In this document: in pieces, positions 1-13,376 of the stretch
How positions within the stretch are numbered: the stretch's first letter is position 1
Layout: each line of letters begins with the position of its first letter
From: an uncultured Ardenticatenia bacterium
Lineage (GTDB): Bacteria; Chloroflexota; Anaerolineae; Promineifilales; Promineifilaceae
Length of the DNA: 13,484 nucleotides
Direction: 5' to 3'
Assembly: GCA_937858165.1 (NCBI GenBank)
Contig: CALLZA010000781.1
Location: 1-13,484 of the forward strand
The notes under the pieces: generated by a model
What the model saw: the letters and a program-made list of their open reading frames with translations, nothing else
Database searches by the model: none
What the model was told of the DNA's origin: nothing
Program-made: the position numbers and the translations under genes

Positions 1-44
1 TTGCCTATCGTGAGTGTGTTTGATTACGTATGATGTTTTTTTTT
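1..44. other. Unplaced leader before adapter, probably non-genomic
   Basis: AT-rich stretch ending in a run of nine T immediately before a synthetic Illumina adapter. Because it lies outside the adapter it cannot be contiguous genomic sequence. It contains TTACGTAT, an 8-base match to the end of a common Oxford Nanopore ligation adapter, so it may be a noisy adapter read-through; the match is short and this is a guess. Confidence 0.5.
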
Positions 45-110
45 CAAGCAGAAGACGGCATACGAGATCTAGTACGGTCTCGTGGGCTCGGAGATGTGTA
101 TAAGAGACAG
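45..110 (+). other. Illumina P7 + i7 index + Nextera transposase adapter (assembly contamination)
   Basis: Bases 45-68 are the P7 flow-cell sequence (begins CAAGCAGAAGACGG). Bases 69-76 (CTAGTACG) match the i7 index portion of the Nextera N702 primer. Bases 77-110 are the Nextera read-2 transposase adapter, ending in the 19-bp Tn5 mosaic end at 92-110 (AGATGTGTATAAGAGACAG). This is a library-construction artefact, not an insertion sequence of the organism. Genomic sequence begins at about 111. Confidence 0.98.
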
Positions 111-3005: not shown

Positions 3006-3041
3006 TGTGTTTGTGCTCCCCACTCCATCTATTCAAAAGCG

Positions 3042-3095
3042 TCCACAGATTACGCAGATTACACAGAAGATAATCTGTGTAATCTGTGGATCCTC
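3042..3095. repeat. Palindromic 9-mer element, copy 1 (short form)
   Basis: Arms 3042-3061 and 3071-3090 are 20 bases each and pair at 19 of 20 positions (the exception is G opposite T), around a 9-base loop. The core 3044-3088 divides exactly into five 9-mers: CACAGATTA, CGCAGATTA, CACAGAAGA, TAATCTGTG, TAATCTGTG. The right arm is followed by ATCCTCT, a tail shared with the other copies. It sits in the crtB-crtI spacer, two bases from the end of the crtB stop codon, so it should be part of the operon mRNA as a strong hairpin. Confidence 0.9.
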
Positions 3096-3096
3096 T

Positions 3097-4050
3097 CTAG
3101 GCTGTTACTTGCGCGGCGCGGGACCGACGCCAGATGCCGGGCAGAAGGGTCAGTTTGCGACCGTCGCTGGCGCGGGCGCGGCGGTTGAAGACGTCGTAGT
3201 CGTGGGCTTCGATGTCGTCCAGAATGGCGGCGTAGAGCTCGGCCGCGGCCTGGACGGCGAAGCGGCTGCTGCCGCCCAGCAAGGCCACGCCGGGCAGGGC
3301 CTCGGCGAACAACTGGCGCGTCCGGGCGATCTGGAAGCGCATGAACTCGCGCCAGCGGTCATCGACCACGCCGGCGGCGATGTCGTCATCGCCCAGCCCA
3401 TAGGCGGCCAACTCGGCCTCGGGCAGGTAGAGGCGGCCGTTGCGCCAATCTTCGCCCACGTCGCGCAGGATGTTGGTCATCTGTAGAGCTACGCCCAGCT
3501 TGACGGCGTAGGGGATGGCCTCGTTGCCGGCGTAGCCGACGATGTGCATGACCATCAGACCGACGGTGGAGGCGACGGCGTAGCAGTAGTGGGACAGATC
3601 GGCGAACGTTTCGTAGCGTCGCGGGTTCAGGTCGCCGGCCACGCCGTCGAGTAGTTGCTCGGCGTATTGACGCGGAATGTGGTAGCGGACGCAGGTGTCG
3701 GCCCAGGCCAGGGCCACCGGGTCGTCGCCGGGGTTGCTGCCCAGGCTACGCTGGCGCCAGGCGCGCAGGTCGGCCGCCCGGTCGCCGTCGTTGCGGTCGA
3801 CGATGTCGTCGCTGACGCGGCAGAAGGCGTAGAGGGCCTGGATGGCGCGCCGGTGCTCGGCGTGCATGAGGGCTGAGGCAATAAAGAACGTGCGGCTGTG
3901 CTCGCGGGTGATGGCCCGGCACTCCTGATAGGCGCGCCGATACTGGGCGCTCCCGGCTGAAAGCTCTATGCTATGACGCAGGCGGTTTTCCAGCGGGGCG
4001 TAGGCCTGCGCTAGAAGGTTATGTTCCCAGAACTCCAGTTGAGCTGTCAT
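3097..4050 (-). CDS. crtB: Phytoene synthase (squalene/phytoene synthase family)
   Basis: A 317-residue enzyme that condenses two geranylgeranyl diphosphates to phytoene, the committed step of C40 carotenoid synthesis. Both aspartate-rich Mg-diphosphate motifs are intact: DDIVD at 81-85 and NILRDVGED at 193-201 (D197 and D201). HSRTFF at 51-56 and RVSDDIVD fit the family pattern. The ATG at 4050 has a good ribosome binding site (GAGGAG) a few bases upstream and a near-consensus promoter at 4118-4146, so crtB is the first gene of the crtB-crtI-P450 operon. Squalene synthase-like (HpnC/HpnD) enzymes share the fold, but the adjacent crtI supports phytoene synthase. Confidence 0.94.
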   Translation of the reverse strand: MTAQLEFWEHNLLAQAYAPLENRLRHSIELSAGSAQYRRAYQECRAITREHSRTFFIASALMHAEHRRAIQALYAFCRVSDDIVDRNDGDRAADLRAWRQRSLGSNPGDDPVALAWADTCVRYHIPRQYAEQLLDGVAGDLNPRRYETFADLSHYCYAVASTVGLMVMHIVGYAGNEAIPYAVKLGVALQMTNILRDVGEDWRNGRLYLPEAELAAYGLGDDDIAAGVVDDRWREFMRFQIARTRQLFAEALPGVALLGGSSRFAVQAAAELYAAILDDIEAHDYDVFNRRARASDGRKLTLLPGIWRRSRAAQVTA

Positions 4051-4117
4051 CCGCTCTCTCCTCTTTGCCGGTTAACTCTTGGCCAGACAGACCATTATCA
4101 AGACGCTCGATAGTGAC

Positions 4118-4146
4118 AAGATAGCAGATTGCCCAATATTTGTCAA
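4118..4146 (-). promoter_or_regulatory. Sigma-70-type promoter of the carotenoid operon
   Basis: On the minus strand the -35 is TTGACA (4141-4146), the spacer is 17 bases and the -10 is TATCTT (4118-4123). Transcription would start near 4111 and run into crtB, leaving about a 60-base leader. It is one of the best-matching promoter sequences in the window and lies in a local AT-rich patch. Confidence 0.8.
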
Positions 4147-4153
4147 TATATTG
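4144..4153. promoter_or_regulatory. Candidate operator palindrome over the crtB -35 box
   Basis: CAATATATTG is a perfect 10-bp palindrome that overlaps the -35 hexamer by three bases. Imperfect symmetry (ATTTGT left, AACAGTAT right) may extend it. A repressor bound here would block the promoter. No regulator gene is present and palindromes of AT-rich DNA can arise by chance. Confidence 0.35.
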
Positions 4154-4425
4154 TAACAGTATAGCGCAACTTTATTGCCGTGTGAAGGTCCTGGGTGGCC
4201 GTAGATGGCCAACTCCCGCACCCCTCTTTCAGAAGACGGAATAATACCGTCTTTCTGAGAGGTGAGCGAGTGAAGAGGGCAATTAATCCGGCCAAAAAGG
4301 GTCGGTTGTTGGCCAAAAAGCAGAAAAGGGGGTTGGGCGTCTGGCCGTGGGAGGGTAGGGTGGTGGTTAGCGATGGCGCAGAAAGAAGCCGGCCAGTAGC
4401 GCGGGTTGCTTTCCCCGCGCCACGC
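4154..4425. other. Non-coding spacer between the PPOX gene and the crtB promoter
   Basis: With the promoter region this is the longest gene-free stretch (4051-4425, 375 bases). It holds the hairpin at 4223-4262 and a direct repeat of GGCCAAAAAG (4290-4299 and 4311-4320, 21 bases apart). The plus-strand reading frame through it has no ribosome binding site and no recognisable protein, so I see no gene. Confidence 0.6.
4223..4262. repeat. Bulged hairpin downstream of the PPOX gene
   Basis: Arms 4223-4239 and 4247-4262 form three helices, CCTCT/AGAGG, CAGA/TCTG and AGACGG/CCGTCT (15 bp in all), with a TT bulge, a single-T bulge and the 7-base loop AATAATA. It lies between the end of the mttB-GNAT-PPOX operon and the crtB promoter, where a transcription end would be expected, but no U-tract follows on the minus strand. 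It could be a Rho-dependent or processing hairpin. Confidence 0.6.
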
Positions 4426-4857
4426 TCACCAGCCGGCGATGTCGTCCTCGCCGATGATCGTTGCCGGCGAAAGGCGCACCAGCAGTTCGCCGGGGACGGC
4501 GTTGCGCGCGCCGAAGGCGTCGGCCTGCGCTTCGCCCATGTAGCGGCCGCCGATGCGCGTGGCCCAATGGCGCAACTCGTCGAGGTTGTCGCTGAACGTC
4601 ACGGTTCCGTCCACCTTGACGTAGGTGAAGGGCGGAGCCTCGTCATCGACACACAGCGACACCCACGGGCTATGGCGCAGGTTGCGGGCCTTGACCGTCG
4701 TGTGCCAAGTGGTGAAGACGATCTGCTCGCCGTCGCGCTCAAACCAGATGGGCACGACGTGGGGGCGACCGTCGGGTCGCATCGTGGCCAGCTTGCCCGT
4801 GTGGGGCTGGGCCATCATGAACTCCCAGCATTCGGCGCGAGACATCTTTTTGGCCAT
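4426..4857 (-). CDS. PPOX-fold protein, probable F420-dependent oxidoreductase (TIGR03618-like)
   Basis: A 143-residue split-barrel protein of the pyridoxamine 5'-phosphate oxidase-like superfamily. LATMRPDGRPHVVPIWF (23-39), IVFTTWHTTVKARNLRHSPWVSLCVDD (46-72) and the C-terminal RNAVPGELLVRLSP (118-131) are typical of the small actinobacterial and chloroflexal F420-binding members (Rv1155-like). FMN or heme use cannot be excluded from sequence. I chose the ATG at 4857 because GGAAGGAGG lies just upstream; an in-frame ATG at 4884 would add nine residues that overlap that site. It follows the GNAT gene by 54 bases on the same strand and is probably the last gene of the mttB-GNAT-PPOX unit. The physiological substrate is unknown. 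Confidence 0.85.
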   Translation of the reverse strand: MAKKMSRAECWEFMMAQPHTGKLATMRPDGRPHVVPIWFERDGEQIVFTTWHTTVKARNLRHSPWVSLCVDDEAPPFTYVKVDGTVTFSDNLDELRHWATRIGGRYMGEAQADAFGARNAVPGELLVRLSPATIIGEDDIAGW

Positions 4858-4911
4858 GATCCTCCTTCCGTGCTGAGTCCGCATCTGAGGATGCGCACTC
4901 CGCGGCTGGCG

Positions 4912-5463
4912 TTAATCAAGCAAGAGCGCCATTACCAGATCGTCCAGATACTCCCCATCGCGCCGGGCGGCCCGGCGGCGGCGGCCCTCGACTTCAAAGC
5001 CGCACGACTCATAGAGCCGGATGGCGTTCGTATTGCGGACGAAGACGTTGAGTTCGATGCGCGTTACCACACCACCGGCCCGCGCCCAATCGATGGCATA
5101 CGCCATCAGCCGCCGGCCGATGCCGCGGCCGCGGTACCCCCGGCCGACAGTGATGCCCAGCGTCGTCGCGTGGCGCACGTTGCGCCGCTTGCCCCCTTGC
5201 AGCGTCAACTGGCCGACGATGCGTCCGTCAGCCTCGGCCACCAGGAAGAGACTGTTGCTGGCGCGGTTCATCTCGCTGATCATCCGCGCCTCGCTCTCCG
5301 TCGTCGGGTTGAACTCGTCGGCCATCGTGATCAAGTTGATGCCCGGCTCGGCGAAAACGCCGCGTGCGTAGGCAACAATCTGCGCCGCGTCTTCGGGGAG
5401 GGCGCGGCGGATAATGACCTCGTTGCTACCACTGGTCGAGAAAGCCGTCGAAAGAACGTTCAT
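4912..5463 (-). CDS. GNAT-family N-acetyltransferase
   Basis: A 183-residue single-domain GNAT enzyme. The acetyl-CoA pyrophosphate loop is GYRGRGIGRRL (109-119), and the C-terminal NTNAIRLYESCGFEVEGRRR (144-163) is the classic motif B of the RimJ/RimL-like and spermidine/peptide acetyltransferases. Its ATG overlaps the mttB-family stop codon as ATGA (5460-5463), so translation is coupled to the upstream gene, and GAGGGGG in the end of that gene can serve as ribosome binding site. The acceptor substrate (protein N-terminus, polyamine or small amine) cannot be decided. Coupling to a methylamine-type methyltransferase hints at a small amine, but that is speculation. Confidence 0.9.
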   Translation of the reverse strand: MNVLSTAFSTSGSNEVIIRRALPEDAAQIVAYARGVFAEPGINLITMADEFNPTTESEARMISEMNRASNSLFLVAEADGRIVGQLTLQGGKRRNVRHATTLGITVGRGYRGRGIGRRLMAYAIDWARAGGVVTRIELNVFVRNTNAIRLYESCGFEVEGRRRRAARRDGEYLDDLVMALLLD

Positions 5464-6929
5464 GTGCCCCCTCGCCGGTCGATGAACGCCAGACCGCGGG
5501 CCAGAAGGTCGCCGTGGTCATCCGGGGCGGGCGAATCGCGTAGGAGGGCCACGGTGCGATCGCGCAAGACCCGTTGCGCCGCCGGTTGCTGCTCCAGCAG
5601 CCACGTCTCCATGCTCCAGTGAGGATAGAGCGGGCTGGTGTAGTAGCCGGTCTTGTAGCGCTCCAATGTCGAGGGGGTGGTCAGGAAGTGGCCGCCGGGG
5701 CCGGCGTCGTGGATTTCGTCCAGCACGGCGTGGGCGTCGTCGAGTTGGAAGCCGTCGGCAAAGCGCCGCGCCTGGTCGATGATCTCGTGGACGTGGACGA
5801 TGGTCAACGGCGAGATGGCCTTGGAGCCGAGGGTGTCGCCGATGAACGGGGCCAGCCCGCCTTTGGTCAGGCCGAACGACAGGGCGTTGAGCCAGTAGGT
5901 GTCGGCAGCGATGAGGTCCATGCCCCAGCCCGTGCCGCTGCCCGACGTTCCGGTGTGGGGCAGACCGTAGTGGGCCATCATCTCGGCGCAGGCCAGATTG
6001 ATGAGCACGCTCTGCGGGTCGTAGAAGTTCATCATCGTCTTCATGTCGAAGTAGACCGGCAGCATCCCCAGGCTGATCGGCGCGCCGGGCCGAATGAGCT
6101 GGCTGATGGTCAGCCCGGCCAGCAGCTCGGCCAGCAGCAGGGCCAGCGTGCCGGCGGGTGTCAGCGGGGTGGAGGCCCCGGCCATGCTGTAGTTGGAGTA
6201 GATGACCGGCAGGCCGCGCTCCACGGCCACCTTCAGCTTGTCGGCCGTGCCCTCATTGACCACCAGCGGCGAGACGGGGTTGAAGTAGGGCAGCACGAAC
6301 GGCCGCGCTGCCAGATCGCCGTGGAGCATCTCGTACATGTCGAGTACAGCCGGGAACTGCGTCTCGTCCGACACCAGCAGCACCAGCGACTTGGTCGTGT
6401 TGGCGATCATCTCCAGGCTGGCGTAGAGGTCGGTCTGCGCCACCGGCACGTCCTGGACGATGCCGACGGTGGAGATGACGTCGTAGTGGGGCAGGGCGCT
6501 GCCGAGGCGCACCATGTCCTGCATGTGGCGGCGGGTGAAGGGGGTCACGTCGTCGGTCAGCGGGTCCTGGTAGAAGAGCGCTGTGACGCCGATCCCGAAG
6601 CGCAGCCGGTCGTCGCCCAGCCGGAAGATGGGGTTACCCAGCCGGTCGTAGACGGGGATGACCTTCGGCGCGGTACGGAGGGCGTCCTCGATCACCTCCG
6701 ACGGCAGGCGCAGCACGTCGGCCGCGGCCCGCGCGCCGAGCTTGCCCTCCAGGAAGCGCAGGACGCCGGGCGAATCAACGCGGACGCCGGTCTCGGCCAG
6801 GATGCGCAGGGCGTAGCCGTGGACTTGGGCTTTCTGTGCCTCGCTCAGCAACGTCAGGCGGGGGCGTGCGTTGTGGGGCTCGGCTGGGGGGCGATGTCGG
6901 CCGCGTTGGGTGGGTGCTCTGCGACTCAT
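5460..6929 (-). CDS. Trimethylamine methyltransferase (MttB) family protein, non-pyrrolysine type
   Basis: A 489-residue TIM-barrel methyltransferase of the MttB superfamily. Family-typical blocks include LAETGVRVDSPGVLRFL (44-60), the central YGLPHTGTSGSGTGWGMD loop (321-338) and the C-terminal GPGGHFLTTPSTLERYKTGYY (410-430). There is no in-frame UAG, so unlike the archaeal enzyme it has no pyrrolysine. Non-pyrrolysine members such as MtgB demethylate quaternary amines like glycine betaine and pass the methyl to a corrinoid protein. No corrinoid protein or activase is present here, so the substrate is open. The basic, proline-rich first 22 residues are probably disordered. The ATG at 6929 has only a modest GAGG site. 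It begins a unit with the overlapping GNAT gene and the PPOX gene. Confidence 0.88.
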   Translation of the reverse strand: MSRRAPTQRGRHRPPAEPHNARPRLTLLSEAQKAQVHGYALRILAETGVRVDSPGVLRFLEGKLGARAAADVLRLPSEVIEDALRTAPKVIPVYDRLGNPIFRLGDDRLRFGIGVTALFYQDPLTDDVTPFTRRHMQDMVRLGSALPHYDVISTVGIVQDVPVAQTDLYASLEMIANTTKSLVLLVSDETQFPAVLDMYEMLHGDLAARPFVLPYFNPVSPLVVNEGTADKLKVAVERGLPVIYSNYSMAGASTPLTPAGTLALLLAELLAGLTISQLIRPGAPISLGMLPVYFDMKTMMNFYDPQSVLINLACAEMMAHYGLPHTGTSGSGTGWGMDLIAADTYWLNALSFGLTKGGLAPFIGDTLGSKAISPLTIVHVHEIIDQARRFADGFQLDDAHAVLDEIHDAGPGGHFLTTPSTLERYKTGYYTSPLYPHWSMETWLLEQQPAAQRVLRDRTVALLRDSPAPDDHGDLLARGLAFIDRRGGT

Positions 6930-6960
6930 GGGTGGCCTCGGTGGGTGGATGATACAGAAA

Positions 6961-7029
6961 AGAAGAGCTCACGCAAAGGCGCGAAGGGGCAAAGAAGAAT
7001 AAGCCTTCTCACTTTGCGTGAGCTCTTCT
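6961..7029. repeat. 18-bp perfect inverted repeat with tandem 8-mers (second repeat family)
   Basis: Arms 6961-6978 (AGAAGAGCTCACGCAAAG) and 7012-7029 are perfect reverse complements over 18 bp. An inner GAAGG/CCTTC pair (6983-6987 with 7004-7008) can extend the stem. From 6971 the left side reads as three 8-mers: ACGCAAAG, GCGCGAAG, GGGCAAAG. The right arm reaches the last base of the elp3 stop codon. On the minus strand the stem is followed by a T-rich stretch (TTTTCTG), so it may also end elp3 transcription. Its sequence is unrelated to the CACAGATTA family elsewhere in the window. Confidence 0.88.
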
Positions 7030-8666
7030 CACACAAGCGAATGAGCCATATACAGTCCATCGGGCGCGAAGCCAAAGCGGCGATAGTACTCGCGCGTACC
7101 TACGGCGCTGATGACGGCCAGGCGCGAGTAGCCGGCGGCGCGGGCCATCATCTTGGCCCGTTCAATCAGCGCCGCGCCCAGCCCCGTGTGTTGGGCCTCG
7201 CCGCGGTTGTCGTCGCCGGGGTTGAGCGCCGGGCCGTAGACGTGAACCTCACGAATCATGGCGCAGCCGGTCAGTTCGGGGAAGGGGTGGGGTTGGGGCA
7301 GGTCGCGGCGCGGCAGCGAGAGGCGCAGGAACGCGGCCAGCCGATCATCAGCCGTGTCGTAGCTCAGGAAGTGTTCGGTCGTGGCATCGGTGTCATAGGC
7401 CAGGTCGTGGAACACCAGCGCGGCGGGCACGGGATCGCGGCGGATTTCGCGGCAGCGGATGCAGCGGCAGGGTGTTCCTGCTTCGCGTAGTCGCTCCTGG
7501 GCCAACTGGCGCAGGTTGGCCTTCTTGTTGCCGGCGACGACATTGGTGGTCGGAAAGTCGCGCACGACGCGGGTCAGGCGGGTGTAGGGCGGCGTCTGGG
7601 CCTTGCAGCGGGCCAACAGATCGACCAGTTGTTCCTCGGTGTAGGGCGTGTACTCGCCGCGCAGCCAGACATCGTGGAGTTCGGCGTTGGACAGCAGCAT
7701 GCAAGGGTAGATTTTCAGTTCGTCGGGGCGGATGGTTGGGTCGTCCCACAGGTGGGCGTAGTCGGCCGCGTCGCCGTCGGGCGTTGCGCCGAGCAGGTTG
7801 GCCATCCAGTGGCCGTGAATCTTGAAGCCGGCCAGCCGCAGCAGGCGAAAGGCGTCGCGGGTGGACTGAACGTCATGGCCGCGCTGGTTCAGCGCCAGCA
7901 CGCGCTCGTCGAGGCTCTGGATGCCGACCTGCACCTTCGTCACGCCCAGGCGGCGGAACCAGCGCAACTCGTCGGCGTCGATGTGGTCTTGCCGCGTCTC
8001 GACGACGAGGCCGACGTTGCGGCGGCGGGCGGTTTCGTTAGCGACCTGGGCCTCTTCCAGACCAGCCGCCTCAAAGCCGTTGAGCGCGTCGAAGCAGCGC
8101 TTGATGAACCATGCCTGGTAGTCGCGGCGGTAGCTCGACCACGTGCCGCCCAGCACCAGCAACTCGACCTTACCCGTCGGGTGGCCGATGTTCTCCAGCG
8201 CCCGCAGGCGGGAGGCGGTCTGGGCGAACGGATCGAAGGCGTGGCGTTCGGCCCGTTGCGCGCCCGGCTCGTCGTGGAGGTAGCTCTTGGGCATCCGCAC
8301 GTCTGTCGGACAGAAGATACACTTTCCGGGGCAGGGGTAGGGCTTGGTCAGCACCGTGACGACGGCCACGCCGGCCTGGGTGCGCATCGGCTTCATTTGG
8401 AGGTGGGTGCGCAGGTCGGGGTCGAAGGTCAGCCGGCCGGCGGTGCACAGGCGCTGGTAGGCGTCGAGCACCTGGCTCTTGGACAGCCACGGCAGGCCGC
8501 GCCGGGCGAAGGCGCGGACGGCGGCGTTGTAGCCGCGGCTGGTCAGCGGGCGCAGGGCGTCCAGTTCGTCGATGAGTTCGACGAGCAGTTCCTCGCGGCC
8601 GTCGAGCGCCACCGGCTTGTTGCGGGCCAGCCATTCAGCTTCGCGCGCCTGTGATGTGTCTGCCAT
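7029..8666 (-). CDS. elp3: Elp3-type tRNA uridine-34 radical SAM/acetyltransferase
   Basis: A 545-residue protein with both Elp3 halves. The radical SAM part has C112, C116 and C119 in PCPGKCIFCP for the 4Fe-4S cluster, and VQVGIQSLDERVL (245-257) in the barrel. A cysteine cluster C400, C402, C405 is the likely zinc site. The C-terminal GNAT domain has QHTGLGAALIERA (492-504) for acetyl-CoA and YYRRFGF (527-533). Elp3 catalyses the first step of cm5U formation on wobble uridine 34. Stand-alone bacterial forms are known, including the structurally studied one from Dehalococcoides, also Chloroflexota. I chose the ATG at 8666; a GTG at 8687 would start inside a repeat element. There is no clear ribosome binding site at either. 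It is bounded by repeat elements at both ends, which suggests it is a separate transcription unit. Confidence 0.93.
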   Translation of the reverse strand: MADTSQAREAEWLARNKPVALDGREELLVELIDELDALRPLTSRGYNAAVRAFARRGLPWLSKSQVLDAYQRLCTAGRLTFDPDLRTHLQMKPMRTQAGVAVVTVLTKPYPCPGKCIFCPTDVRMPKSYLHDEPGAQRAERHAFDPFAQTASRLRALENIGHPTGKVELLVLGGTWSSYRRDYQAWFIKRCFDALNGFEAAGLEEAQVANETARRRNVGLVVETRQDHIDADELRWFRRLGVTKVQVGIQSLDERVLALNQRGHDVQSTRDAFRLLRLAGFKIHGHWMANLLGATPDGDAADYAHLWDDPTIRPDELKIYPCMLLSNAELHDVWLRGEYTPYTEEQLVDLLARCKAQTPPYTRLTRVVRDFPTTNVVAGNKKANLRQLAQERLREAGTPCRCIRCREIRRDPVPAALVFHDLAYDTDATTEHFLSYDTADDRLAAFLRLSLPRRDLPQPHPFPELTGCAMIREVHVYGPALNPGDDNRGEAQHTGLGAALIERAKMMARAAGYSRLAVISAVGTREYYRRFGFAPDGLYMAHSLV

Positions 8667-8681
8667 ATGAAGATAAGAATA

Positions 8682-8837
8682 AACCACAGATTACGCAGAT
8701 TCCACAGATTTCAACAAAATGATCCGTAGGTTGAGCGGATTTCAGAGAACCGCAATTCTCTCCTTATTAATCTGCCCAATCTGTGGATTGCTCCTCTTCA
8801 ATCCGTGAAATCTGTGTAATCTGTGGTTCCTCTTCTT
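8682..8837. repeat. Palindromic 9-mer element, copy 2 (long form)
   Basis: The outer arms 8682-8710 and 8800-8828 pair at 26 of 29 positions. Between them is an inner right-arm-like copy, AATCTGCCCAATCTGTGGAT (8769-8788), and a small hairpin AGAGAA/TTCTCT (8744-8749 with 8756-8761). Both right arms are followed by a CCTCTTC tail (8792-8798 and 8829-8835). It fills nearly the whole 170-base spacer between the LLM oxidoreductase stop and the elp3 start and is the most complete copy in the window. Confidence 0.88.
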
Positions 8838-9862
8838 CAGGAAGCTAGTTCTACCATCGCCCGCAACGTCTCCACGTCGAACACGGTCATGTTCAGCGTC
8901 GTCACCGGGCTGTGGCGCCAGAGCGACAGCCGTTCGCGAACGCGCTCGCGCGGACCGACGAGGGCCACGGCGTCAATGAGTTCGGCCGGCACGCGGGCCA
9001 TGGCCGCGCCTTTATCGCCGCTCAGGTAGAGGTCCTGAATCTCGGCCGCCGCGCCCTCGAATCCGTAGCGGACGGCCAGGTCGTAGTAGAAGTTCTTGCC
9101 CCGCGCGCCCATGCCGCCGACGTAGAGGGCCAGCATCGGCCGCAGCATGTTGTAGGCGATGTCGAGGTTGTCGTTGATGACGACCGAGACGGTCGGCGCG
9201 ATGTCGAACTGCTCGCTCGTCTTGCCTGCCTTCGCCAGCCCGGCATCTACGTGAGGCTTAAATACCGCGTCGTAGCGCTCTGGGGCGAAGAAGATGGGCA
9301 GCCAGCCGTCGGCGACTTCGGCGGCCAGCTCGACGTTCTTGGGCCCGATGGCCGCCAGGTAGATGGGGATGGTGGGATCGGCCTTCAAGGTACTCTTCAG
9401 CGGCTTGCCCAGGCCGGTCGCGTCGTCACCGCGATAGGGGATTTGATAGTGGTGGCCCTCGAAGGTCAGCGGGGTCTCGCGGCGGAAGATGGCGCGGACG
9501 ATGCTGACGTATTCGCGCGTGCGCCGCAGCGGTTGGGCGTAGCTGACGCCATGCCACCCCTCGACCACCTGCGGCCCGGAGAGACCCAGGCCCATCAGGA
9601 AGCGTCCGCCGGAGAGCTGGTTGAGCGTCATGGCGGTCATGGCGGCGTTGGCCGGGGTTCGGCCGGGCATCTGCATGATGGCCGTGCCCAGCTTAATGCG
9701 TGTCGTCAGCGCCCCCAGCCAGGCCAGCGGCGAGACGGCGTCGGAGCCATAGGCCTCGGCCGTCCAGACGCTGTGGACGCCCAGCCGGTCGGCCTCCTGG
9801 ACGAGTTCGATGGGGAGTTGCATTTGGCCGGCGGCGTAGCCGAGCATGAGACCTAGGCGCAT
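8837..9862 (-). CDS. LLM-class flavin/F420-dependent oxidoreductase
   Basis: A 341-residue luciferase-like monooxygenase-fold (TIM barrel) protein. [10 protein letters not shown] at the start, [15 protein letters not shown] (83-97) and [20 protein letters not shown] (170-189) are characteristic of the F420-dependent subgroup found in Actinobacteria and Chloroflexota. F420 rather than FMN use is inferred from this likeness. Such enzymes carry out hydride-transfer redox reactions on varied substrates; none can be assigned here. The ATG has GAGAGG seven bases upstream, lying inside the end of the PIN toxin gene, whose stop is only four bases away. It may therefore be read through from the toxin-antitoxin promoter. 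Confidence 0.9.
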
Positions 9863-9866
9863 GGGT

Positions 9867-10253
9867 TTACCTCTCGTAGGGAACTTGAAGGTTGGCGATC
9901 ATGGGGAAGTGGCGTTGGTTGAAGGTAATCAGAGTTGCCCCGGTTAGTTCGGCTGTCGCCGCAATAAGTGCGTCGACAATGCCTGTCCCATGACTTTGCT
10001 GGTACTGCCGGCGTATGCTGCCCCCAAGTCTGGCAATACTCTCGTCTACCGGCACAATCCTGGCTAGGCGCATTAGAGCTGCAACCCCCTCTTCCTCCCG
10101 GTTGTGGCGAATTCCGGCGATTAGCTCGGCCACTGTCATGACGGAAACCAATAGCTCTCCGTCCTCACTTAACTGGGCGAGGAAGGTTTTTGCTTGTTCA
10201 CGACCGCGCAGGTGTTCGATAAGAATATCTGAATCGAGAATGTATTGATTCAC
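9867..10253 (-). CDS. vapC: PIN-domain ribonuclease toxin (VapC family), module 1
   Basis: A 128-residue PIN domain, the normal VapC size. Acidic active-site residues are visible at D7 (ILDSDILIE), E43 (TVAELIAGI) and D94 (GIVDALIAA); the fourth position is N112 in LITFNQRHF, where D is common but N or other residues also occur. VapC toxins cleave tRNA or rRNA when freed from their antitoxin. It starts with GTG and overlaps the antitoxin stop by four bases (GTGA, 10250-10253), with a weak ribosome binding site, as expected for a toxin made at a lower level than its antitoxin. Third-position base use is less GC-rich than in the flanking metabolic genes, which suggests transfer. Confidence 0.9.
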
Positions 10254-10507
10254 TGCCTTGACTCAATTCGCTCATCCCATTCCTGGCGAAGCTCGGCAAA
10301 GAATTCATCCAGATCATCACGATCGGCCCAGATGCCAAAAGATTGCTCCAGGAGTTCTGACTTGCTTGCCGGTGGCAACTCCTCGTTAAGCAAGCGATCA
10401 ACAGCCATGCGGATTAGCTCGCTTTGAGTCTGACTGCGCAGTTCGGCTAACGTTCTCAGCCCCTCGCGCTCTTCGCGCGTCAGGTAGATTTGCGTTCGCT
10501 CCATCAT
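10250..10507 (-). CDS. vapB: Ribbon-helix-helix antitoxin (VapB/CopG-like), module 1
   Basis: An 85-residue protein whose N-terminus (RTQIYLTREEREGLRTLAELRSQTQSELIRMAVDRLL) matches a ribbon-helix-helix DNA-binding domain: a beta strand, then two helices. The acidic, tryptophan-containing C-terminus (about 55-85) would wrap the toxin. I chose the ATG at 10507, with GAGGTG six bases upstream; in-frame GTG codons at 10510 and 10516 overlap that site. It heads the operon with vapC and probably represses its own promoter at 10537-10565. Confidence 0.88.
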   Translation of the reverse strand: MMERTQIYLTREEREGLRTLAELRSQTQSELIRMAVDRLLNEELPPASKSELLEQSFGIWADRDDLDEFFAELRQEWDERIESRQ

Positions 10508-10524
10508 CACTATCACCTCGTATG

Positions 10525-10565
10525 ATGTATAAGGATAATGTATATGAGAGCGTTTTTTGAGTCAA
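10525..10565 (-). promoter_or_regulatory. Promoter and candidate operator of toxin-antitoxin module 1
   Basis: On the minus strand TTGACT (10560-10565), a 17-base spacer and TACATT (10537-10542) form a plausible sigma-70 promoter. The -35 overlaps the stop codon of the upstream ycaQ homologue. The plus-strand heptamer ATGTATA occurs at 10525-10531 and 10538-10544, 13 bases apart, over and just downstream of the -10, and is a candidate site for the RHH antitoxin. Confidence 0.55.
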
Positions 10566-11854
10566 GCTTTAAAGACCCCAGGGCGGGGCGTGCCTGTCAC
10601 TCGCTCACGCCTGGCCAACGACGCGACTAGTAACGGCTGCCGAATCGCTTGCGCGTCCAGCGCACCCGCGCCAAGCAAGGCCACGAACCGCTCAAACCCA
10701 CGCGCCAACGCCGCGGCGAACGCTTCATCCTGGCCCAACGCTTCATCTTCCAGCCACAGGCCGAGGATGACGAGTGTGTTGGTCGTCCGGTCAAGTTTGC
10801 TGTCGAAGCGGCCGACGAGCCGCTCGCCCCACAGGATGGGCAGGGTGTAGTAGCCGTACTTGCGCTTGTCGGCCGGCTTGTAGACTTCCCACACGTAATC
10901 GAAGCCGAATAGAACTTTGGCCCGGCCGCGGGCGCTGACGGGATCGAGCGGCGCGAGGAAGACAACCTCTTCCATTGTGGTCGTTGCCAACGGCGCCCAC
11001 GCCGCCGGGACGCGCCCGGCGCTCAGGTCGGCCAGTACTTCGGCGTCGCGGCCCAGGGCATGGTGCAGCGCTTTCCAGCCTTCAACCCGTACCTCGATAA
11101 TGTCCCCGTCGGCCAGCATCCCCTCCAGTAGTTTCTTGGCGGCGCGGTCCGGCTCGCCGCGCTGCCACGTCTCGCTCGTCCGCTTGATCCGCGTCAGGCC
11201 GGAGAAGCCGATCTCCTTTTTGATCAGGAAACGGTCGGCCTCCTCCTCGTCGCTTTCACGAATAAGATGCGCCGGAGCGACAGTTTCCGTGAGGGCGTAG
11301 ACGCGCTCGAACTTCTCGCGGTGGTGGGTCATTACCTCACCCGTGCGCCACAGGTAGTAGAGGGCCAGGGCGCTGTCCTTGCGGCCGCGATAACTCTGCG
11401 TGCGGGTGCGCGTGGCCATCTGGAAGTCGCGATTGCTGACCGTACCGCGCTCGCGCAAGATGGCCCGCATCTCGACGATGGCCTCGGCGTGCTCGCGGCC
11501 CATCGCACTAATTCGCGAGTCGCCCGAGATGTTGTCGCGCTCGCGGCGCATGACCACGCGCCAGTGGGGCAGTTCGTCCATCGGCCGCACGGCCAGCCAG
11601 CCGCCCCAGTCGAAGAACCGGCGCTGGCCGTAAGTAGCTTCCTCCCAACCGCCGGGCGAATAGTCGAGGACGCGACTATGGAGTTGAATGTCCTGGCTGC
11701 GGGCGATGATTTGCAGCGGGTCGAGTTGCAGGTACTCCATCTGGCGCATGGCCGCGGCCGTGCCCTCGTTGCCCCGCCAGCGCCGGCCCGGCCATAAGCC
11801 CTGCTTACCGAGGATGAAGCGCCGGGCGGTGTCGATGTCGATGGTCAGTGTCAT
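10562..11854 (-). CDS. YcaQ/AlkX-type winged-helix DNA glycosylase (HTH_42 family)
   Basis: A 430-residue protein of the HTH_42 (formerly DUF1006) family. MRQMEYLQLDPLQIIARSQDIQLHSR (36-61) is the family signature; it includes the Q-hydrophobic-D catalytic motif at Q43-L44-D45. This motif marks the E. coli YcaQ (AlkX) group, which unhooks interstrand crosslinks and removes bulky alkyl-purines, rather than the QxQ AlkZ group. The C-terminal half (VFLAPLDPV..., LFGFDYVWEVYKPADKRKYGYYTLPILWGERLVGRFD) also matches the family. The ATG lies six bases after the stop of the dinB-like gene, whose TAG stop forms part of the AGAGG site. Cotranscription of the two genes is therefore very likely. DNA-repair function is inferred from family, with good motif support. 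Confidence 0.88.
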   Translation of the reverse strand: MTLTIDIDTARRFILGKQGLWPGRRWRGNEGTAAAMRQMEYLQLDPLQIIARSQDIQLHSRVLDYSPGGWEEATYGQRRFFDWGGWLAVRPMDELPHWRVVMRRERDNISGDSRISAMGREHAEAIVEMRAILRERGTVSNRDFQMATRTRTQSYRGRKDSALALYYLWRTGEVMTHHREKFERVYALTETVAPAHLIRESDEEEADRFLIKKEIGFSGLTRIKRTSETWQRGEPDRAAKKLLEGMLADGDIIEVRVEGWKALHHALGRDAEVLADLSAGRVPAAWAPLATTTMEEVVFLAPLDPVSARGRAKVLFGFDYVWEVYKPADKRKYGYYTLPILWGERLVGRFDSKLDRTTNTLVILGLWLEDEALGQDEAFAAALARGFERFVALLGAGALDAQAIRQPLLVASLARRERVTGTPRPGVFKA

Positions 11855-11860
11855 GTGCCT

Positions 11861-12370
11861 CTAAGCCCCATTGGTTCTGGCTCTGGACACCCAATCCGGG
11901 GCCGACCCGGTCTTCTGGCCCAGGTGCAAGCTCAACTGGGCGGCATGTTCCTGCGCGTGGCGCATGGTGTAGAGCATCAACTCGGCGAAGGGCATCTCGC
12001 CACCCCAGGGAAACACGTAGGGTTGGGCGGCCTTTTCGTCGTCCAGCGCCTCCAGCGTCGCCCGGCACTTCCAGCGGCACTGTTGGAGATAGGCTCGAAG
12101 ATCATCCTTTGTATATGGCTCGTCCGGCAGCGCGCCGGCGATGAACGGCGCCGGCGGAACGAACCCTTTCCCGATCCCGGATAGGTAGCGGTCTGTCCAG
12201 GCCAGGGTGTGATAGACGATAAACCAGAATTCGCCATACGCCTGCCCATCGGGATCATCCCAAATCACGTCCTGCCACCGTTCGTCGGGGCAGGCGCGAA
12301 CCACGTCGTCGAGCAAATCGAAGGCCGCGCCGAACTGGCCCCAGATGATCAAGCCCCAGTGGAAATTCAT
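11861..12370 (-). CDS. DinB-family (DinB/YfiT-like four-helix bundle) protein
   Basis: A 169-residue protein with the three-histidine metal triad expected of DinB-like four-helix bundles: H54 (YHTLAWTD), H138 and H142 (MRHAQEHAAQL). This superfamily is not DNA polymerase IV. It includes thiol-S-transferases that conjugate bacillithiol or mycothiol to electrophiles, and many damage-inducible proteins of unknown role. The ATG has an excellent GGAGGAGACA leader. It lies 18 bases downstream of the PIN toxin of module 2 and six bases upstream of the ycaQ homologue. The catalytic activity is not known; detoxification is an inference from family. Confidence 0.85.
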   Translation of the reverse strand: MNFHWGLIIWGQFGAAFDLLDDVVRACPDERWQDVIWDDPDGQAYGEFWFIVYHTLAWTDRYLSGIGKGFVPPAPFIAGALPDEPYTKDDLRAYLQQCRWKCRATLEALDDEKAAQPYVFPWGGEMPFAELMLYTMRHAQEHAAQLSLHLGQKTGSAPDWVSRARTNGA

Positions 12371-12388
12371 TGTCTCCTCCGAGCGTCG

Positions 12389-12793
12389 TTATCGCTTGTA
12401 TGGAAGGGTTTCTAACTGAACCGCTGCCGACAGGACAGCGTACTCCGGGTCTTTGTGGACCAGTACCGCCCGATGACGGAGCGCAAAGGCAGCAATGAGC
12501 GAGTCGGCCAGGGAGAGACGATGGTCTGCCTTCAGGCGGCCGGCCGTCAGCAAGGTCGGTTCGTCAACGTCCCAGAGAATTGTTGCCGGCAACTGTTTCA
12601 GAAGCGCGTAGCGTCTGTCGGCCACGTCCTCAGTCTGTTCCTGGAGGGTGATGTAATACGTTTCCAGCAAGACGAGGAATGGCAGCAGAATTGACTCCTG
12701 ACGCAGCAATTCTTCCACCCGCGCGGCACCCTCTTCGTCCTCCAGCAGGGTGAGGATGGCGGACGTATCAAGCAGGTATGACGTTTGTCTCAC
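12389..12793 (-). CDS. PIN-domain ribonuclease toxin (VapC-like), module 2
   Basis: A 134-residue PIN domain with the full acidic set: D9 (LLDTSAIL), E44 (LLETYYITL), D97 (SLADSLIAA) and D115 (HKDPEY). It starts at a GTG that lies inside the antitoxin gene, giving a 26-base overlap; no later in-frame start would preserve D9, and AGAGG lies nine bases upstream. It is paired with an AbrB-type antitoxin and is not closely similar to the module 1 toxin. Base composition is less GC-rich than the metabolic genes of the window. Confidence 0.9.
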   Translation of the reverse strand: MRQTSYLLDTSAILTLLEDEEGAARVEELLRQESILLPFLVLLETYYITLQEQTEDVADRRYALLKQLPATILWDVDEPTLLTAGRLKADHRLSLADSLIAAFALRHRAVLVHKDPEYAVLSAAVQLETLPYKR

Positions 12794-13013
12794 GTTGCCT
12801 ATCCTCTTGCCGTGACTCGATGAGACGCTCCGTCAAGCGTTCCCCTTTGGCAGACCCGCGCAGAGCCTTGATAGGGTCGGCGGGTAGAAGGATAACCTTA
12901 ATCACTTCCCCATCGTCGATCCATTCCAGGTAGGCCCCGCTTTCAATGCCATGACGCTCGCGAATGGCTGCCGGGACGACGGTCTGACCTCTTTTGGTGA
13001 CAGTTGTTCTCAC
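12768..13013 (-). CDS. AbrB/SpoVT/MazE-type swapped-hairpin antitoxin, module 2
   Basis: An 81-residue protein beginning with RTTVTKRGQTVVPAAIRERHGIESGAYLEWIDDG, the standard AbrB-type DNA-binding beta-hairpin domain (first about 45 residues). The charged C-terminal tail (about 52-81) would bind the PIN toxin. I chose the GTG at 13013 because GGAGGT sits six bases before it; an in-frame GTG at 13031 would overlap that site. It shares 26 bases with the toxin gene and probably represses the operon through the repeats at 13036-13065. Confidence 0.88.
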   Translation of the reverse strand: MRTTVTKRGQTVVPAAIRERHGIESGAYLEWIDDGEVIKVILLPADPIKALRGSAKGERLTERLIESRQEDRQRETNVIPA

Positions 13014-13035
13014 GCGCTCACCTCCAATCACATTT

Positions 13036-13077
13036 TACAAGTCAAAATAGGTATATACAAGTCAACTATCTATTATA
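13036..13077 (-). promoter_or_regulatory. Promoter -10 and 20-bp-spaced direct-repeat operator of module 2
   Basis: A perfect TATAAT -10 lies at 13072-13077 on the minus strand; the matching -35 (ACCTTC, 13095-13100) is poor. Downstream, TACAAGTCAA occurs twice on the plus strand (13036-13045 and 13056-13065) with starts exactly 20 bases apart, about two helical turns. Both copies lie between the -10 and the antitoxin start, as expected for autorepressor sites. Confidence 0.6.
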
Positions 13078-13100
13078 CCTTGCGCCAACAACGAGAAGGT

Positions 13101-13130
13101 AAGAAAAAAGCCAACCGCTCGCGGTTGGCT
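13101..13130 (-). terminator. Rho-independent terminator of tRNA-Glu
   Basis: A 9-bp stem, AGCCAACCG/CGGTTGGCT (13109-13117 and 13122-13130), with a 4-base loop is followed on the minus strand by TTTTTCTT. It starts seven bases after the tRNA 3' end and separates the tRNA from toxin-antitoxin module 2. Confidence 0.9.
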
Positions 13131-13136
13131 TTCTAG

Positions 13137-13209
13137 TGCCCTCACGGGGATTCGAACCCCGGTCTTAGCCTTGAAAGGGCTACGTCCTGGTCCCCTAGAC
13201 GATGAGGGC
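13137..13209 (-). tRNA. tRNA-Glu (anticodon UUC)
   Basis: A 73-base cloverleaf on the minus strand. The acceptor stem is GCCCTCA/TGAGGGC (5' end at 13209), with discriminator A at 13137. The anticodon stem TAGCC/GGCTA closes the loop CTTTCAA, giving anticodon TTC. The T-arm is CGGGG-TTCGAAT-CCCCG, and the D-arm stem is GTCT/GGAC. CCA is not encoded. It has its own promoter and terminator. Confidence 0.97.
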
Positions 13210-13219
13210 AACGGAGAGG

Positions 13220-13248
13220 ATTTTAGCACCGGAGCGGCGGGCGGTCAA
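13220..13248 (-). promoter_or_regulatory. Promoter of tRNA-Glu
   Basis: On the minus strand TTGACC (13243-13248), a 17-base GC-rich spacer and TAAAAT (13220-13225), preceded by TGC, an extended -10. The predicted start is a few bases before the tRNA 5' end at 13209, so the leader is very short. Confidence 0.82.
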
Positions 13249-13257
13249 ACGGGGAGC

Positions 13258-13376
13258 AACCACAGATTAAGCAGATTTTCGAAGAAGAACAATCTCTCTT
13301 CAGGGAATCTGCCTAATCTGTCAAATCTGTGGATAATGCCTCTTGTATCTTTCAAATCGGTGCAATCTGTTGCTAA
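13258..13376. repeat. Palindromic 9-mer element, copy 3 (degenerate long form)
   Basis: The left arm AACCACAGATTAAGCAGATT (13258-13277) pairs imperfectly with an inner right arm (13315-13333). A more decayed outer right arm follows (about 13354-13373, AATCGGTGCAATCTGTTGC). A CCTCTTG tail (13339-13345) follows the inner right arm. The order left arm, inner right arm, outer right arm is the same as in copy 2. It lies between the tRNA-Glu promoter and the start of the plus-strand gene. Confidence 0.8.

Follow-up and report, generated by a model that had tools for sequence, protein, structure and literature searches.

Three intergenic spacers in a 13,484-nucleotide stretch of DNA from an uncultured Ardenticatenia bacterium of the Chloroflexota (contig CALLZA010000781.1; the whole stretch is referred to here as the window) carry a dispersed palindrome built in a new way, to which we give the working name tandem-unit palindromes. 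Each element has two inverted arms, and each arm is a short tandem array of a single 6-9-nt unit; in nearly all cases the arms point inward. The elements are real and abundant in patchily distributed genomes, where they amount to up to hundreds of paired units of non-coding DNA per genome with no enzyme linked to them. They are apparently undescribed in the literature searched; a search aimed at such elements, with subscription papers beyond its reach, found no description of them among the papers listed.

Palindromes of 9-nt units in the window

The three palindromes, S1 (3042-3090), S2 (8682-8828) and S3 (13258-13376), have arms composed of CACAGATTA-type 9-mers. ACAGATT or its complement AATCTGT occurs 12 times in the 13.5 kb of the window, every time within these spacers, as compared with an average of 0.66, and at most 4, over 500 first-order Markov sequences; an exact CACAGATTA is likewise found nowhere else in the window. 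Tandem Repeats Finder reports a period of 9 at 3044-3067, 3071-3088, 8685-8710, 8800-8825 and 13306-13330. The arms of S1 and S2, taken as stretches of 20-33 nt, are 73-95% complementary. S3 is imperfect, with an additional degenerate arm, and its arm pairing is visible in the predicted fold. The predicted folds of the elements are very stable, and with short flanks their GC content is 41-47% as against 64% for the window. A preliminary description of this DNA, made from the sequence alone, had noticed the forward 9-mers followed by their reverse complements and had placed the three spacers between genes; both observations are confirmed, with real genes or a tRNA-Glu on the flanks. A search of Rfam up to E = 1 gave no match covering the spacers, and a single protein search with the translated repeat gave no protein homologue. 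A fourth element of the same design, S4, was absent from the preliminary description. Its fold (6930-7040) is about -43 and -44 kcal/mol, one value per strand, and its left arm matches many places in the relative G003. The parts of the elements are as follows, where G001 is a second genome of the same genus.

3042-3067, forward strand: S1 left arm, TCCACAGATT-ACGCAGATT-ACACAGA
3071-3090, reverse strand: S1 right arm of reverse complement units, 95% complementary to 3042-3061, the arms being 9 nt apart
8682-8710, forward strand: S2 left arm, AACCACAGATT-ACGCAGATT-CCACAGATT, 90% complementary to 8800-8828
8711-8799, no strand: S2 centre, a degenerate palindrome GATCCGTAGGTTGAGCGGATT .. AATCTGCCCAATCTGTGGATT forming a nested hairpin in the fold
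8800-8828, reverse strand: S2 right arm, by complementarity to the left arm
13258-13280, forward strand: S3 left arm, AACCACAGATT-AAGCAGATT-TTC
13281-13305, no strand: S3 centre, GAAGAAGAACAATCTCTCTTCAGGG, with the closing motif GAAGA..TCTTC as in several unit families of G001
13306-13336, reverse strand: S3 right arm, with the Tandem Repeats Finder period of 9 at 13306-13330
13337-13376, reverse strand: S3 extra degenerate arm, AATCGGTGCAATCTGTTG, repeat families D1 and D9
6961-7029, no strand: S4, a palindrome of the GCAAAG unit family, arms AGAAGAGCTCACGCAAAGG.. / ..CTTTGCGTGAGCTCTTCT

Abundance in the source genome and its relatives

The paired-unit pattern CAGATTNNNCAGATT has 379 matches in the window's genome (a 4.4-Mb assembly, 79% complete) and its reversed control has none. 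The first 100 of these matches listed fall, by our count, into 45 clusters, which by extrapolation suggests roughly 170 clusters in all. Seventeen distinct clusters were examined, drawn from 13 of 30 fetched loci (the others overlapping) and from the window, and 15 of them lie outside gene calls in a genome where 77.6% of bases are called coding. Gene calls for this and for the later intergenic, orientation and sense-strand counts are codon-bias or longest-ORF (open reading frame) calls made here rather than annotation. The proposal of a dispersed, high-copy family biased towards spacers is therefore upheld, there being further copies in the genome that do not lie within genes as often as between them. 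A stricter palindrome pattern has 84 matches per strand in the same genome, overlapping matches within one element being counted separately.

Among same-genus genomes there are 412 paired units in G001, 206 in G006 and 22, 7, 5, 3 and 0 in the other five. At least one paired-unit match is present in 42 of 59 genomes, many of them no higher than the control level. The strict pattern, which finds only near-perfect copies and so gives a lower bound, had no match in 300 other genomes sampled across Chloroflexota, a sample with one other same-genus genome (G005). Other units are distributed differently: paired GCAAAG units number 49 in G003, 29 in the window's genome and 14 in G001, and AGTGG matches number 472 in G001, 51 in G003 and 15 in the window's genome. 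Sister genomes thus differ in the unit families that they use. The genome G011 gave 201 matches to the reversed control of a unit-family search, apparently from another abundant 7-nt tandem family (GGTGAYN).

Many unit families of one design in a single genome

When 800 kb of G001 was scanned de novo for hairpins, 102 palindromes had arms that were periodic or could be assigned to a family, and a further 45 of other kinds reached the score used. The 102 fall into about a dozen families of one design, with units of 6 nt (ATCGCT), 7 nt (AATTASG, AATGACG, AGTGGNY, CTAGGTG, GACCRCN and GCGGGTG), 8 nt (GCAGGGGA) and 9 nt (CACAGATTN, ACGGATTNA, CACAGAGNN and CGCAAAGRN). Intergenic intervals hold 87 of them and 15 lie elsewhere, in sequence of which 83-89% is called coding; six of the 10 well inside gene calls belong to the GC-rich GCAGGGG family. 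When neighbouring arm blocks within 220 nt are compared, 91 pairs point inward, 13 in the same direction and three outward, all three of the last being from the GACC family.

A motif recurs at some of the centres. GAAGAG or its complement is found at 21 of 98 centres, as against 1.4 in shuffled centres (maximum 5) and one of 49 centres of other G001 palindromes, and is concentrated in the CTAGG, CAGATT, AATGACG, ATCGC and AATTASG families. Arms of the AGTGG type were seen by eye inside 5 of 16 CACAGATT (CAGATT) palindromes, and by a strict script in one; families may therefore be nested, with one at the hairpin centre of the next at a rate above chance. A separate class of GTAG-type palindromes (GTAGGTTGAACA.., GTAGTCAGCAAC..) in G001 looks like REPINs (paired repetitive extragenic palindromes, REPs), a label assigned here. 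Hairpins of all kinds with a score of at least 17 number 60 in 200 kb on the 1-Mb contig C2 of this genome, contig C1 as sampled being sparser with 12, 17 and 43 per 200 kb.

Occurrence in other phyla

The palindrome pattern was found in at least 109 stretches of named genomes, 80 of which were inspected. The preliminary description's remark that similar spacers occur in several phyla is supported, since among the matches listed at least eight named groups outside Chloroflexota carry the pattern. The groups among these matches, taken from record titles and some of them merged in other taxonomies, are Alphaproteobacteria, Bacteroidota, Chloroflexota, Acidobacteriota, Planctomycetota, Cyanobacteria, Deltaproteobacteria, Aminicenantes and Ignavibacteriae. 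Many of the records are metagenome-assembled genomes (MAGs), and isolates of Asticcacaulis, Bacteroides, Phocaeicola, Flavobacterium and Laspinema are also among those listed. The ends in the 80 loci are mostly CCACAGATT..AATCTGTGG, with mirrored flanks that vary by lineage. Thirty of the cross-phylum genomes have 2 to 341 paired units each (119 in Asticcacaulis biprosthecium) as against 0 to 11 for the reversed control, the highest control value being in Flavobacterium.

BLAST gave no element match in E. coli and two phage matches, both weak. Ten Bacteroides finegoldii records labelled as plasmids were matched by one query and two by the other, and we suspect that these are mislabelled chromosomal contigs. 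The low-complexity filter of BLAST may hide more matches.

Differences at orthologous sites

Syntenic stretches for comparing sites were found in seven same-genus genomes. S2 is absent from the orthologous spacer in all seven, where the spacer is 154-220 bases long as compared with 321 in the window. S1 is absent in four of four genomes anchored on both sides, S4 in three of three such genomes and S3 in all seven stretches anchored on the left, each up to 500 bases long. In G001 (L131) a palindrome built from the units of a different family (ACGGATTTA 9-mers) occupies the orthologue of the spacer at window 3020-3113; that one intergenic site has different unit families in two species suggests a preferred spacer. 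The simplest reading is that the elements were gained in the window's lineage, at a divergence where exact junctions are unreadable. The preliminary description had proposed a check for empty sites in relatives. The elements are absent from sister spacers, and no exact empty site with a clean junction was obtained, Chloroflexota spacers being too diverged and most aligned Bacteroides sites being occupied in both genomes.

In Bacteroides closer comparisons could be made between B. fragilis Q1F2 and the close genome G102, where the elements are about 95 bp long (TCACCACAGATTACACAGATT..AATCTGTGTAATCTGTGGTGA). A second type has CACAGAG units and ends identical to the first, TCACCACAGA..TCTGTGGTGA. 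At 12 sites where each 100-base flank exceeded 70% identity, two elements had changed type and one was at 68% identity. Alignments beyond this flank filter showed three further type switches and two inverted loops, and BLAST two more elements inverted at an unchanged site. Among 71 distinct elements, drawn from both genomes with orthologous pairs included, 39 have T/T arms, 26 G/G arms, five are hybrids and one is mixed, so that 65 of the 71 have one unit type in both arms. Two loop lineages are found with T/T as well as G/G arms, and one connects hybrids of opposite arm order. The shared loops, together with arms switched at fixed sites, indicate that arms and loops are exchanged while ends and sites stay constant.

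In B. fragilis two elements also surround an extra segment with a 229-aa ORF (L290, 4947-5975), where the relative has a single element (L296, 3253-3352). Genes lying between two elements may thus be gained or lost through them.

Mobility and the search for a partner

Miniature inverted-repeat transposable elements (MITEs) of a DDE-type transposon are an unlikely explanation. They would account for the inverted ends (TCACCACAGA/TCTGTGGTGA in Bacteroides), for the variable loops and for family counts that are uneven among sister species. However, target-site duplications were found neither in the 71 Bacteroides elements (best direct flank repeat 2.06 as against 1.97 shuffled) nor in the 102 G001 elements (1.32 as against 1.46), a test in which old copies may have lost theirs. 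The tandem units of the arms also speak against MITEs, as do the dozen or so families with differing units and one design in a single genome. The preliminary description had considered a MITE-like element; one mobilised by a target-duplicating transposase is disfavoured by the lack of duplications.

The same description had considered a REP- or BIME-like element (BIME, bacterial interspersed mosaic element) and had proposed looking for a REP-associated tyrosine transposase (RAYT), a Y1 enzyme, or another transposase with matching ends. Mobilisation by a RAYT, or by a relative associated with terminal inverted repeats (TIRs), is also unlikely in our estimation. The elements do share with REPs, REPINs and BIMEs that they are short, mostly intergenic, high-copy palindromes in inverted pairs, with no target-site duplication, and published TIR-type elements adjoin RAYT-like genes in the accessible text of PMC3733652. 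As that text describes them, GTAG/CGTC REPs and their TIR-type relatives differ from our elements in tag and transposase. The GTAG (or CGTC) tag is not at the element ends in the 80 listed cross-phylum loci or in Bacteroides, and tandem 6-9-mer arms are a further difference. Within the sensitivity of PF01797, Y1_Tnp had no match (E<=0.001) in nine of 32 element-bearing genomes, several of them rich in elements, and was present in 23; those without a match include the complete chromosome of B. fragilis Q1F2 and Asticcacaulis biprosthecium. In 30 Chloroflexota genomes the locus of the best Y1 match is never flanked by tandem-unit palindromes; one of these loci contains a single AGTGG-unit match. 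Dependence on a RAYT, as tested, is rejected on the Y1-free element-bearing genomes and the unflanked Y1 loci, with a weak correlation with Y1 number left over. The Y1 loci of G001 (L066) and G003 (L082) have non-tandem palindromes, AACCGGCTGAAGCCGGTT and TAGAAACCGAGTTTCT.. respectively, which are possibly genuine RAYT/TIR-type families of the genus.

RNA hairpins maintained by selection, as terminators or as processing or stability signals, are improbable. The very stable folds would suit them, as would the mild depletion of G001 elements between divergent genes (9 observed, 19.7 expected) and their number between convergent genes (19 as against 12.0). On the sense strand, though, G.U mismatches are no commoner than A.C, at 36 and 46 in 69 G001 elements (p 0.32) and 37 and 57 in 42 Bacteroides elements. 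This gives no indication that pairing is kept at the RNA level. The pairing looks to be at the level of DNA. Together with the lack of an Rfam match and with presence at one gene pair that varies among sister species, this counts against the RNA hairpin module suggested earlier.

It is equally improbable that the units are binding-site arrays for a conserved DNA-binding protein, or uptake-type sequences, kept for a host function. One unit is indeed found in distant groups. Uptake words, though, are scattered singly through genomes, whereas exact CACAGATTA in the window is confined to the three elements; the strict palindrome is in 0 of the 300 other phylum genomes sampled, and sister species use different units. 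An origin as integrated relics of telomerase-like tandem-repeat complementary DNA from a DRT10-type defence reverse transcriptase is very improbable: the 9-nt tandem-repeat DNA that DRT10 makes from a non-coding RNA template (in the accessible text of PMC12632851) and the purine-rich 5' arms of 88 of 102 G001 elements recall it, but 28 of 45 other palindromes are also purine-rich, units inside one arm differ from each other, and RVT_1 has no match in the near-complete G001 nor in G069, G072, G082 and G087, all of them element-rich. As a current requirement such an origin is unsupported by these RVT_1-free rich genomes and is weakened, which leaves an old origin or a reverse transcriptase missed by RVT_1. 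PDDEXK_2/Rpn nucleases (PF12784) had no match in any genome and none in the control either, which makes this result uninformative.

Selfish palindromes as the favoured explanation

After the Y1, RVT_1, RNA and duplication tests the options that are left are a dedicated enzyme or the processing of extruded hairpins by the host's own replication and repair. We put at just short of an even chance the explanation that the elements are selfish DNA palindromes, non-coding and non-autonomous, existing and evolving in the form of DNA hairpins. We also tentatively rate host replication and repair on extruded hairpins above a dedicated enzyme. The mobility of the elements and its mechanism, as we infer them, would run as follows. 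The palindrome would extrude during repair or on the lagging strand; its arms would stay matched through template switching from one to the other, and slippage would homogenise the units within an arm. Invasion of another palindrome or of a hairpin tip would copy or replace arms and loops, and one family might thereby turn into another and from time to time settle at a new intergenic site. A broader claim, which we regard as doubtful, is that they form a large, previously undescribed bacterial class of selfish DNA in at least eight groups that needs no dedicated transposase, rewriting itself via its own hairpins, with arm-by-arm family conversion and a landing preference for hairpin tips. If so, the double-hairpin elements of organelles would have a counterpart in bacteria. 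The elements shape the spacers between genes and provide a natural setting in which to ask whether a palindrome that lacks a transposase can be selfish.

A number of observations weigh against this explanation. A unit shared by distant groups requires horizontal spread or strong sequence recognition; it is unexplained by template switching alone and points to a specific partner. Y1_Tnp has one match in the window's genome and three in G001, and copy number correlates weakly with Y1_Tnp count in 59 Chloroflexota genomes (rho 0.28, p 0.03; within family rho 0.29, p 0.09; raw counts uncorrected for genome size). RVT_1 was matched in 10 of the 15 genomes rich in elements and in 8 of the 19 that are poor in them (p 0.19), and the sensitivity of the family searches is limited. 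The GAAGAG motif was selected only after the sequences had been inspected, and it is nearly absent from the centres of the AGTGG, GCGGGT and ACGGAT families; of nested centres, a strict script gives one case for the 5 of 16 scored by eye. In Bacteroides, nine of the 12 flank-matched elements are 97-100% identical, so turnover is not universal, and no insertion was caught between B. fragilis Q1F2 and G102. Some of the switched sites are in blocks of only 85-92% identity, where strain recombination could import a different copy, and ectopic homologous recombination could likewise swap arms.

As far as the accessible text of the reports describes them, organelle palindromes, yeast GC clusters and Fusarium palindromic microsatellites appear to behave most like the tandem-unit palindromes. 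The short palindromic repeats of Volvox organelle spacers are inserted into one another, with no agreement on a transposition enzyme (PMC2670323, in the part available). Similarly, yeast mitochondrial GC clusters merge and shuffle at homologous positions and have no agreed transposition enzyme, though they carry putative target-site duplications (PMC4478555, in the part available) and the bacterial elements have none. Differences between relatives in content or presence at one site are seen in the organelle-type and the bacterial elements alike. The former are from organelles, and tandem 9-mer arms are not described in the accessible accounts of them. The palindromic (A)n/(T)n microsatellite elements of Fusarium mitochondria, optional between species (PMC7218506, in the part available), have in common with ours that they are palindromes of repetitive units, and differ in being mitochondrial with mononucleotide units. 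Fungal double-hairpin elements, which are represented here by a citation alone, are grouped with the organelle selfish palindromes.

The short tandemly repeated repetitive (STRR) sequences of cyanobacteria also place tandem units, of 7 nt, in spacers; these are direct repeats without the inverted arms of our elements. The interpretation offered in the preliminary description is, as a whole, partly supported.

Translated elements and other features of the window

The available text of PMC13321764 (2026) gives TLLKKPQITQITQIFTRLKLVKIRAIRGFFQ as the most frequent predicted antimicrobial peptide, found five times in three Chloroflexota MAGs. CCACAGATTACACAGATTACACAGATT encodes exactly PQITQITQI, and on this ground we infer that the published peptide, which contains PQITQITQI, is a translated repeat element. 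Spurious peptides from these elements have thus apparently entered a published list of antimicrobial peptides. The earlier statement that such spacers often cause spurious short protein predictions fits this one published case, so far as its text describes it.

The genes around the elements are ordinary. S1 lies between the genes for an amine-oxidase-family (desaturase-like) protein and a squalene/phytoene synthase, S2 between a radical SAM gene and a luciferase-like monooxygenase gene, and S3 adjoins tRNA-Glu; MttB-like, PIN domain and MazE-type antitoxin genes are also nearby. At the contig start, window 40-110 contains CAAGCAGAAGACGGCATACGAGAT.. GTCTCGTGGGCTCGGAGATGTGTATAAGAGACAG, which looks like an Illumina/Nextera adapter; if so, the assembly contains uncleaned adapter sequence.

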